Source of the DNA: Acidobacteriota bacterium
GTDB taxonomy: Bacteria; Acidobacteriota; JAAYUB01
Assembly: GCA_012517875.1 (NCBI GenBank)
Contig: JAAYUB010000161.1
Location: 1-33,026 of the forward strand
DNA: 33,026 bases
Reading direction: 5' to 3'
Part shown: positions 11,533-25,016 of the stretch, one piece after another
Numbering within the stretch: position 1 is the first letter of the stretch
Layout of the letters: each line of letters begins with the position of its first letter
Made by a program: the position numbers and the translations under genes
Notes under the pieces: model-generated
What the model saw: the letters and a program-made list of their open reading frames with translations, nothing else
Told to the model about the DNA's origin: nothing
Database searches by the model: none

Positions 11533-12975
11533 TCAGACCCGCGACCGTTTGAGCGTGTCCAGCACCTTCCGGTGACGGTCCAGTGACAGGTCGCGCAGAC
11601 GCTGGAACTTGTCGAAGGGAATCAGGTTGTCGAATTCCACCGCCGTGCCGCCGGCGGCGTTGTAGATCACCCGGCCGCCGAAGGTGTCCTCGAATCCGGC
11701 CAGCGGGTCGCGCAGGGTTACCTCGGCGCGGGTGAACACCGGCACCGACTTGTGGGTCTTGATGAAGGTGCCGCCGGGGCTGACCGGCGTCGCCCGGGTG
11801 TGCTCGACGCCCTGACGCAGTGCAGCCTCGCATTCCATGTTCAGCGGCAGGCGGACAAAGCGGCGGCGGAAACCCTGCACCTTGGTCAGGGTGAATTCCA
11901 GGTTCTGGATGTTCTCCGGGCTGATGGCCTGGACGAATTCACAACCCGGGAAAAGCAGGCTGCGGTCCTTGACTACCTTGAAGAAGAGCGGCTCGGCGAA
12001 GATGATCACCGGCGCGCCCATGTTGGCCCGGGTCAGCTTGTGGCGGACAATGGCCGAGATGACGTCGAAATCGTTGAAGGAGACGTAACAGATGAAGGCA
12101 CCCACCCCGCCCTCATCCTGACCCAGGTACCCCTCGAGGAGTTCCAGGTCCTGGATCTGGAGGGTGGCGTAGTTGCGCATGGTGGAGCTGATTCGCTGCC
12201 CCACGGTGTAGTCGCGGGAGAAAATCACCCAGACCAGGTCGCTGACCTTGCCGCTGGAGGGGAAGTAGCGCGGCATGTCGAGCGTCTCCAGCTTGGCGAT
12301 GAGCGAGCGGATGAAATCGTCGAACTTCCCCTTGATGCCGTGGTACCACTCCTTGGGCAGGTTGCTTTGGGGCTGGATCAGCGACCAGCTCAGGCGGCCG
12401 GTGAGTTCCTGGTTCAGAATGGAGTGATGGTTCTCCCAGTGAAAGCTCAGGCCGAACTCGATGGCCTGCTGGAAGGCGATCTGGAGGAAGAGGTCGCGGA
12501 ACGACTCGTTGGCGAAGCGGACGATCACGTCCTCCTCGAAGGTGATCCGGGCGTCGGTCTTGTGGAGCATGCACTCCCGATAGTCGCCGATCTCGGCGAA
12601 GAACGAGCGCAGGGTGCGCAGCAGCGAGGCGAAGGCGGGCCGGGCGTTGTCATAGTAGCTGTTGAGCCGGAGGCCCATCATGGACAGTTTCTTGTAGCGG
12701 ATGTAGTTGATCTTCTGCCGGTCCACCGGGTAGTCGAGCTCCTTGAGCGCCGCCAGACAGCGGGTGGCGGTGATGGCGTCGCCGAGGAAGGTCTCATCGT
12801 ACAGGTATTTCATCAAGGAGGGGAGGTCAACGATGTCCTCGATGATGGAGACATCCACCTGGTGGCCGTTTTTCTTCAGATGGTGGATCTGGTCGATCCC
12901 GGACAGGACCCGGCCCTGCAGGATCTCCATCCGGGCCTGTTCCACGCAATAGGTCAACCGAGTCAGGTCAAACAT
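11533..12975 (-). CDS. Hypothetical protein with receiver-like middle and PilZ-like C-terminal domain
   Basis: The 480-residue soluble protein has no signal peptide. Residues 1-235 are mostly helical and unrecognised. Residues 245-365 show alternating strands and helices like a response-regulator receiver (LVWVIFSRD, GAFICYVSF, APVIIFAEP, CEFVQAIS), but the usual phospho-acceptor Asp after the third strand is absent, so it would be a pseudo-receiver. Residues 369-452 resemble a PilZ c-di-GMP-binding domain: FRRRFVR supplies the RxxxR element, TPVSPGG sits where (D/N)xSxxG is expected, and GGRVIYNAAGGTAVEF matches the closing strands. The second motif lacks its first D/N, so ligand binding is uncertain. 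The start is ATG at 12975, preceded by AAGGGTGG. A TTGACA promoter lies upstream. Domain calls are by eye and need profile confirmation. Confidence 0.6.
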   Translation of the reverse strand: MFDLTRLTYCVEQARMEILQGRVLSGIDQIHHLKKNGHQVDVSIIEDIVDLPSLMKYLYDETFLGDAITATRCLAALKELDYPVDRQKINYIRYKKLSMMGLRLNSYYDNARPAFASLLRTLRSFFAEIGDYRECMLHKTDARITFEEDVIVRFANESFRDLFLQIAFQQAIEFGLSFHWENHHSILNQELTGRLSWSLIQPQSNLPKEWYHGIKGKFDDFIRSLIAKLETLDMPRYFPSSGKVSDLVWVIFSRDYTVGQRISSTMRNYATLQIQDLELLEGYLGQDEGGVGAFICYVSFNDFDVISAIVRHKLTRANMGAPVIIFAEPLFFKVVKDRSLLFPGCEFVQAISPENIQNLEFTLTKVQGFRRRFVRLPLNMECEAALRQGVEHTRATPVSPGGTFIKTHKSVPVFTRAEVTLRDPLAGFEDTFGGRVIYNAAGGTAVEFDNLIPFDKFQRLRDLSLDRHRKVLDTLKRSRV

Positions 12976-13040
12976 GATAACCACCCTTTCCTACATCACG
13001 CGACCTTATCATATGCACATCTCCGGGTCAAAGTATGACC

Positions 13041-13070: not shown

Positions 13071-13106
13071 ATCATCGGAAACACGGGAATTGGGCGAGGT
13101 TGGATG

Positions 13107-13345
13107 GTTCACAGGTTCGCAGGTTCACAGGTTCGCAGGTTCGCAGGTTCGCAGGTTCGCAGGTCCACAAGTTACCGGTTCGCGGGTTCGCAGACGTTTG
13201 ATTGTTGATCGTTCGTTCTGCTCGTCTAACTTCTCTCGTCTACACTTTCTCGTCTCCCGTTTCCCATTTACCATCTCCCGTTTCCCGTCTCTCGTTTCCC
13301 GATTCCCATTTTCTGTCTCCCGTTTCCCGATTCACCCTTCCACCG
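13107..13345. repeat. Degenerate multi-module tandem repeat cluster
   Basis: Eight-base GTTCRCAG units run from 13107 to 13193 (seven near-exact copies, then decayed ones). A short TTGATTGTTGATCGTTCG segment comes next. A pyrimidine-rich stretch (13221-13330) of CTCCCGTTTCCC-like seven-base steps follows, and it ends in GATTCACCCTTCCACCG. The order of modules is the same as in the cluster at 24,708-25,016. No gene is supported here; reading frames across it on either strand are low-complexity artefacts. It fills most of the otherwise empty stretch between the promoter at 13,041-13,070 and the tRNA promoter at 13,383. Confidence 0.9.
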
Positions 13346-13382: not shown

Positions 13383-13411
13383 TTGACATCCTCCTCCTGC
13401 GGCGGTATAGT
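13383..13411 (+). promoter_or_regulatory. Sigma70-type promoter of tRNA-Gln
   Basis: A perfect TTGACA (13383-13388), a 17-base spacer and TATAGT (13406-13411) form a strong promoter. The predicted start near 13418 lies about ten bases before the mature tRNA 5' end, as expected for a monocistronic tRNA gene. Confidence 0.85.
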
Positions 13412-13427: not shown

Positions 13428-13501
13428 TGGGAGGTCGTCCAATGGTAGGACTGCGGACTCTGGATCCGCCTATCGGGGTTCGAATCCCTGCCTCCCAGCC
13501 A
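13428..13501 (+). tRNA. tRNA-Gln (anticodon CUG)
   Basis: The acceptor stem TGGGAGG (13428-13434) pairs with CCTCCCA (13491-13497). The D arm contains CCAATGGTAGGA. The anticodon stem GCGGA/TCCGC encloses the loop CTCTGGA with CTG as anticodon, and the T arm contains GGTTCGAATCC. The discriminator is G and CCA is encoded in the DNA at 13499-13501. The U1-A72 pair is typical of glutamine tRNAs. It has its own promoter and terminator and so is an independent unit. Confidence 0.96.
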
Positions 13502-24649: not shown

Positions 24650-24697
24650 TTCGTGCTCGTTATCGTCATCGTCATCGTAATCGTGATCGTGATTGAG
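24650..24697. repeat. Degenerate hexamer repeat ATCGTN
   Basis: After TTCGTGCTCGT, five in-phase hexamers (ATCGTC, ATCGTC, ATCGTA, ATCGTG, ATCGTG) and a decayed sixth run from 24662 to 24697. It lies in the presumed upstream region of the AEC gene and just left of the large repeat cluster. It appears to be an additional module of that cluster, not present at the other three loci. Confidence 0.85.
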
Positions 24698-24707
24698 CCG
24701 TTTAAAT

Positions 24708-25016
24708 GTTCACAGGTTCACAGGTTCACAGGTTCTCAGGTTCTCAGGTTACAGGTCCAGAATCAGTTGATAGTTGATAGTTGATGGTTGATGGTTGATG
24801 GTTGATGGTTGATGGTTGATGGTTGATGGTTGATCCGTCTCCCGTCTCCCGTCTTCCATCTCTCATCTCCCATCTTCCATCTCCCGTCTTCCACCTCCCG
24901 TCTTCCATCTCCCGTCTTCCATCTCCCGTCTTCCGTCTCACATCTCCCGTTCCCGTCTCTCGATTCACCCACCCACCTATTCACCCATTCACCTATTCAT
25001 CTATTCACCGTCTCCC
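24708..25016. repeat. Large four-module tandem repeat cluster
   Basis: Four modules follow each other with almost no spacer. GTTCACAG-type octamers occur five times, then decay (24708-24760). TTGATAG/TTGATGG heptamers occur nine times plus one decayed copy (24767-24836). Heptamers of consensus CRTCTYC occur sixteen times in exact phase and then drift (24836-24958). ATTCACCC/ATTCACCT octamers run from 24962 to 25008 and close with CCGTCTCCCC. Only the AEC start and TerB stop bound this 450-bp gap; no gene is supported inside. The apparent proteins rich in Glu-Thr-Gly-Asp-Gly-Arg are translations of the heptamers. Confidence 0.95.

Follow-up and report, generated by a model that had tools for sequence, protein, structure and literature searches.

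Two repeat cassettes in one contig

We analysed a cluster of short tandem repeats at 13,107-13,345 of contig JAAYUB010000161.1 (33,026 nucleotides; the whole contig is called the window below) from the genome of an Acidobacteriota bacterium (GCA_012517875.1). The cluster is situated between a PilZ-like gene on the minus strand (11,533-12,984; a weak match, 20.9 bits against a cut-off of 22.5) and the tRNA-Gln gene (13,428-13,501). The source genome, G000 (4.02 Mb, 182 contigs, the window being C161), was compared with the other two species of its genus, G001 and G002, both Acidobacteriota metagenome assemblies. A preliminary description had placed here four successive repeat types, in the same order and on the same strand as in a second cluster at 24.7 kb. 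Tandem Repeats Finder (TRF) confirms the octamer and heptamer arrays at these positions. The window contains 11 matches to the module patterns; 60 Markov-resampled windows averaged 0.27 and never exceeded 2. The parts of the cluster, named as modules, are:

13,106-13,193, plus strand: module A, array of the 8-mer GTTCRCAG, about 11 units with the final third degenerate (TRF: 11 copies, 82% matches, GGTTCGCA phase; pattern matches in the own genome)
13,196-13,209, plus strand: module B, two units GTTTGAT-T-GTTGAT, with TTGATTGTTGAT at 13,198-13,209 between the octamer and heptamer arrays (read in the sequence; expanded in G002)
13,211-13,241, plus strand: B-to-C junction GTTCGTTCTGCTCGTCTAACTTCTCTCGTCT, non-tandem, also at other loci (pattern matches in G000, G001 and G002)
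13,246-13,333, plus strand: module C, pyrimidine 7-mer array CTCCCGT/TTTCCCG, about 12 units (TRF: 12.6 copies of TTTCCCG)
13,330-13,336, plus strand: module D, single ATTCACC unit, the downstream end of the cassette (read in the sequence)

All four steps are therefore present in the described order, but they are unequal: the octamers (11 copies) and the CCCGTTT heptamers (12 copies) are clear, whereas GTTGATN is represented by two units and ATTCACC by one. In the 24.7-kb cluster each of the four arrays is long, and in front of them is a TCGTGA hexamer array, which was missing from the earlier count:

24,651-24,693, plus strand: module E, array of the 6-mer ATCGTN (TRF)
24,708-24,756, plus strand: module A, GTTCACAG array, 6 copies (TRF)
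24,766-24,834, plus strand: module B, GTTGATG array, 10 copies (TRF)
24,835-24,959, plus strand: module C, CCGTCTC/CCATCTC array, 18 copies of CCGTCTC (TRF)
24,963-25,009, plus strand: module D, ATTCACCN array, downstream end, 6 copies of ATTCACCT (TRF; same order at the orthologous site of G001 and G002)

The agreement in order between the two clusters thus stands, but their common strand is uninformative. In sampled stretches of the genome adjacent cassettes have equal polarity 38 times and opposite polarity 34 times, and a polarity set by the chromosomal strand was rejected on these numbers. Between the two cassettes of the window the similarity is only about 67% over 243 bases, and both have higher-scoring partners elsewhere, so they are more like cousins than a recently formed pair.

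Order and polarity of the modules

The family was surveyed in 61 stretches (686 kb) selected for carrying one of four module patterns, with the first 100 places each for the B and D patterns, so that the sample is not equivalent to the whole genome. TRF found in it 146 clusters of 6-8-mer arrays, 74 of them with at least two arrays. Ten 20-kb stretches of large contigs, not selected for modules, contained 5 clusters in 200 kb. The common unit types are GTTCRCAG (A), GTTGATN (B), CTCCCGT (C), ATTCACCN (D), ATCGTN (E), GAGGCTC (F), ACATCGG (G) and CCTGGGT (H). Instead of one fixed heptamer, a cassette strings together several types, with lengths of 6, 7 and 8 bp. A member of the family is a chain of such arrays and short unique junctions, about 100-500 bp long, with a preferred direction. 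Examples of the order are B-E-F-core-G-H-D and E-A-B-C-D, with ATTCACC (D) nearly always last. In several copies the H modules are followed by their own inverted complement around GGATC.

For the analysis of order, module matches within 300 bases were joined into clusters, which gave 98 multi-module clusters in G000. With the best of 128 polarity assignments, 167 of 203 adjacent pairs of unlike modules share polarity, compared with a mean of 118 and a maximum of 133 in 1000 shuffles. The majority order is followed in 142 of the 167 same-strand pairs (85%; shuffles, mean 65%, maximum 74%). E precedes F 22 to 7, B precedes E 15 to 1, E precedes A 10 to 1, C precedes D 10 to 1 and A precedes B 8 to 3; D is last in 37 of the 38 same-strand pairs that contain it. 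Both order and polarity in G000 lie far beyond the shuffles, and the outcome that the preliminary description had named against itself, a genome-wide lack of preferred order, was not found. The polarity bias is also seen in G001 (84 of 99 pairs, null maximum 69). Terminal inverted modules occur in 6 of 67 clusters of at least three modules, a weak excess (null mean 2.6; 6 reached in 2.9% of shuffles).

Junctions shared between loci

When the sequence between modules was printed out, non-repetitive segments common to many loci became visible. Modules F and G are linked by CTCGTTCCCGTAAYGCGGAC. A 28-base pattern around this junction, allowing at most 3 mismatches, has 39, 70 and 58 matches in G000, G001 and G002, respectively; its reversed control has none, and no match was found in 57 other relatives. 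The 31-base junction GTTCGTTCTGCTCGTCTAACTTCTCTCGTCT of the 13.1-kb cluster has, with at most 3 mismatches and counting itself, 3, 5 and 2 matches in the three genomes and none with the reversed pattern. Contig C117 fits a degenerate form of this pattern with 0 mismatches. Shared junctions at separate loci mean that the cassettes are homologous copies and not products of independent slippage. The ends are variable among 21 aligned copies around the F-G core.

Independent slippage of each array at its own site, with the shared order being a coincidence or a mutational bias, would account for the varying unit numbers and for the drift of neighbouring units, and heptamer arrays are also known from other bacteria. 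However, it is contradicted by the non-tandem junctions, 28-31 bases long, that recur at many loci while their controls have no match, and we consider it very improbable.

Orthologous sites in sister species

Both G001 and G002 have an ortholog of the 24.7-kb site, in which the module order is the same, the unit numbers are different and an F array precedes the cassette. The flanks on one side are about 93% identical. At the 13.1-kb site G002 retains A, B, the junction and C, followed by TCCGAT, CGATTACG and ATCTCCT arrays before the tRNA gene; G001 has an A-like array and then a different flank.

An artefact of short-read metagenome assembly or binning is the least probable of the explanations considered. 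All three genomes are fragmented, and one contig of this genus is found in a Lentisphaerae bin; but three separate assemblies agree in the order at the 24.7-kb site, and modules at contig ends are only somewhat commoner than background (8 of 57 compared with 8.3%).

Orthologous sites were compared with the arrays masked; 7 of 32 comparisons had a gap of at least 1 kb and were dropped, leaving 25. Both species carry modules at 20 of the 25 sites, only G000 at 2 and only the sister species at 3, so the family is old enough to occupy the same sites in sister species. The module string is identical at 3 sites; both unit number and module content differ between species. No clean empty site was recognised among the 25 slots.

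Several sites illustrate the turnover. At L011, compared with L077 of G002, B-E is common to G000 and G002, after which one continues with F-G and the other with A-B (by eye). At L027:12035 the end modules G and D are kept; between them G000 and G002 have an H hairpin and G001 has E-F-G-E-C (by eye). The left block of L037:12991 in G000 is similar to a block at L058 of the same genome; in the G001 ortholog it is replaced or missing. A composite E-G-F block is found three times in tandem at L080:14704-15276 of G001, with fewer copies in G002; blocks of about 80 bases can thus amplify as such.

At 11 of the 23 sites with at least 120 bases, more than half of the sister sequence is better matched by another G000 cassette than by the ortholog. 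Two of these (L015:7591 and L042:3705) are non-comparable, the G000 site being outside the cluster database, as it is at a third site, L015:12127, which is not among the 11; two others (L015:4778 and 4791, corresponding to one G000 site) may be plain deletions in G000. After these exclusions 7 of 18 sites are better matched by another locus, which is a pointer and not a test.

Probable inheritance in place and block exchange

The 13.1-kb cluster belongs to a dispersed family of mosaic repeats in intergenic positions, found in a single genus among the relatives searched, and the members of this family are probably inherited in place and modified by slippage and by exchange of blocks. The members would descend from a common ancestral set, and each cassette would remain at its site by vertical inheritance. 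Replication slippage may alter the unit numbers, and ectopic recombination or template switching may lead to an exchange of blocks among sites, with the shared tandem modules serving as patches of homology. As such exchange would pair like modules in register, order and polarity would be kept without selection on each copy, a mobile enzyme or movement of whole cassettes. The earlier suggestion that a cassette spreads or is maintained as a whole agrees with this in one respect, the common descent indicated by the shared junctions, but is too strong: the ends are variable, blocks have apparently been exchanged, and module content changes at orthologous sites.

Several observations weigh against inheritance with block exchange. 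The better matches at other loci set one ortholog against about 150 candidates in low-complexity sequence, and some of them can be deletions in G000. No exchange event has been dated or directly observed. The majority order in G001 (66 of 84 pairs) is inside its own shuffle range (maximum 0.84), that in G002 (22 of 26) is not beyond its own shuffles and is uninformative, and the G000 order predicts those of G001 and G002 only 52 to 19 and 15 to 6, respectively. In G000 itself 36 of the 203 pairs are exceptions to the polarity. Nor does this reading account for the first dispersal of the family or for the near-constant last place of D.

A more specific and rather tentative possibility is that the cassettes follow a directed grammar. 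Fixed repeat words with permitted successions (B to E, E to F or A, F to G, G to H, and C, G or H to D) would be spread across sites by continual block exchange, the tandem repeats acting as recombination adaptors, and the spacers would be rewritten in concert without a dedicated mobile enzyme.

Mobile enzymes

An associated transposase or reverse transcriptase elsewhere in the genome had been proposed as a thing to look for. No RVT_1 match was found in the three genomes of the genus, with 3 of 14 control genomes positive, and spread by a reverse transcriptase, as in retroelements or diversity-generating systems, was rejected. Genes of the IS200 type exist, Y1_Tnp having 5, 7 and 5 matches in G000, G001 and G002, but they do not explain most cassettes.

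The cassettes could be non-autonomous transposons that are moved as units by these IS200-like (Y1) transposases and then decay into mosaics. All three genomes have the enzyme. In addition, inverted copies of a palindromic repeat, CCCGGCCCGAAAGGGCCGGACCGGATTAGCCAGGGGCGCAGCCCCTGG, flank an IS200-like gene in L063 (1699-2487) and in its counterpart L083 (11130-11971), and many copies of this palindrome have a GTTGATN (B) array directly upstream. However, none of the palindrome copies listed lies in the window. At 2 of the 13 Y1_Tnp loci whose DNA was examined (of 17), the domain has modules on either side at a distance of at most 400 bases. As the same holds for 33 of 540 genes in the array-rich sample, this is no evidence of linkage. 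The four Y1 proteins tested, out of 17, all score above the NCBIfam cut-off for IS200/IS605; the one for REP-associated transposases is reached by none of them, although one protein has a weak REP_Tyr_transpos score below it. Finally, constant termini were not found, the cassette ends being variable, and no clean empty site was recognised among the orthologous slots. We regard transposition of whole cassettes as unlikely. Some IS200/IS605 elements insert after TTGAT; if this holds here, the B array is possibly a landing site for the IS200-like element. Further copies of CCCGGCCCGAAAGGGCCGGACCGGATTAGCCAGGGGCGCAGCCCCTGG were observed in L050, L075 and L201.

Genomic context

According to our own simple gene caller, 146 of 150 clusters are outside predicted genes. 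In gaps between tandem genes 31 clusters are directed with transcription and 26 against it; a polarity linked to transcription was rejected for lack of bias. Convergent gaps are over-represented, with 38 of 125 placed clusters, compared with 57 of 301 intergenic gaps of at least 60 bases.

The excess in convergent gaps would fit functional cis elements, such as terminators, protein-binding sites or nucleoid sites, whose order is kept by selection. The conserved order of the 24.7-kb cassette in three species and the H modules with their inverted complement point in the same direction. On the other hand, the cassettes have no bias in transcription direction, and their module strings turn over at orthologous sites. 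The 13.1-kb cassette is outside the promoter-like site of tRNA-Gln (13,383-13,411) and folds no better than shuffled sequences (z 1.1 and 0.35), so that RNA folding as its function was rejected; one strand of the 24.7-kb cassette reached z -3.2. The sister genus G003 has no arrays in 59 kb. Such a function is improbable as the cause of the order, even more so than transposition.

Distribution

Tandem pairs of GTTCRCAG occur 65 times in G000 and 16 and 14 times in its two sister species; 57 further relatives have none. The presence of the same system in G030, a distant acidobacterium, was considered and rejected, as it has ATCGTN arrays and one lone match to C but no F-G junction. Its loci L136-L148 (another family of the phylum) contain nearly only ATCGTN arrays, which form closely spaced inverted pairs in several loci and could fold into hairpins. 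The same vocabulary was also encountered in Lentisphaerae. This was rejected, as the contig concerned (L096, CALMZY010000187.1, 3,625 bases), although binned as Lentisphaerae, matches L075 of G002 with 98% identity along 2,978 bases and is evidently a misbinned contig of this Acidobacteriota genus. No relative of the cassette-neighbouring gene was found in viral contigs.

Relation to known repeats

Cyanobacterial STRR sequences comprise several types of heptamer arrays, dispersed and mostly intergenic. To our knowledge, no ordered multi-type cassette is known among them.

The TAACTGA and mixed heptamer direct repeats of Beggiatoaceae, cyanobacteria and Bacteroidetes form many intergenic 7-bp sets with a patchy distribution (MacGregor 2015, PMC4679880). 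Some genomes mix several heptamers in one gap, and related strains differ by indels in 7-nt steps. In Microcystis, Gramella, Aequorivita and Elizabethkingia, gaps with TAACTGA also contain other heptamers. The cassettes resemble these repeats in being intergenic short direct repeats with mixed heptamers, indels by unit and patchy occurrence. They differ in having eight or more unit types, with lengths of 6, 7 and 8 bp, in preferred order, shared unique junctions and no observed transcription direction, whereas one heptamer is the subject there and most Maribeggiatoa TAACTGA sets are just before start codons. No mention of module order was found in the accessible part of that study.

BIME, REP and REPIN sequences (PMC3733652) are similarly dispersed, intergenic, mosaic and of high copy number, with a Y1-type transposase in the genomes; they consist of tagged palindromes of 20-40 bp in alternating orientation and not of tandem 6-8-mers, and the cassettes have no fixed ends. 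The 13.1-kb cassette, by comparison, is made of tandem 8- and 7-mers and shows no excess folding. Of the four proteins tested here, none reaches the NCBIfam cut-off for a REP-associated transposase (RAYT). The STAR elements of staphylococci (PMC3532100) are also intergenic direct repeats at scattered, stable loci, where they grow and shrink; in our case, the junctions are common to loci and blocks have apparently been exchanged. A literature search, with subscription journals mostly outside its coverage, found no account of ordered cassettes of several short-repeat types.

Local slippage is the usual explanation for short tandem arrays in the spacers of bacteria. The junctions common to many loci, the preferred order and the turnover of content at fixed sites suggest instead that sequence is copied from one site to another. 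A long-standing question thereby becomes testable, namely how dispersed repeats spread and stay alike in bacteria without an obvious enzyme. Three sister species with well conserved gene order and many cassettes each constitute a natural experiment, in which repetitive DNA can be viewed while being remodelled. In practical terms, such cassettes may mislead assembly, binning and promoter prediction.

Other arrays in the window

Two ATTCACCN arrays on the same strand, at positions 1-118 and 1582-1612 of the window, surround the gene at 132-1277. The first of them reaches the end of the contig.
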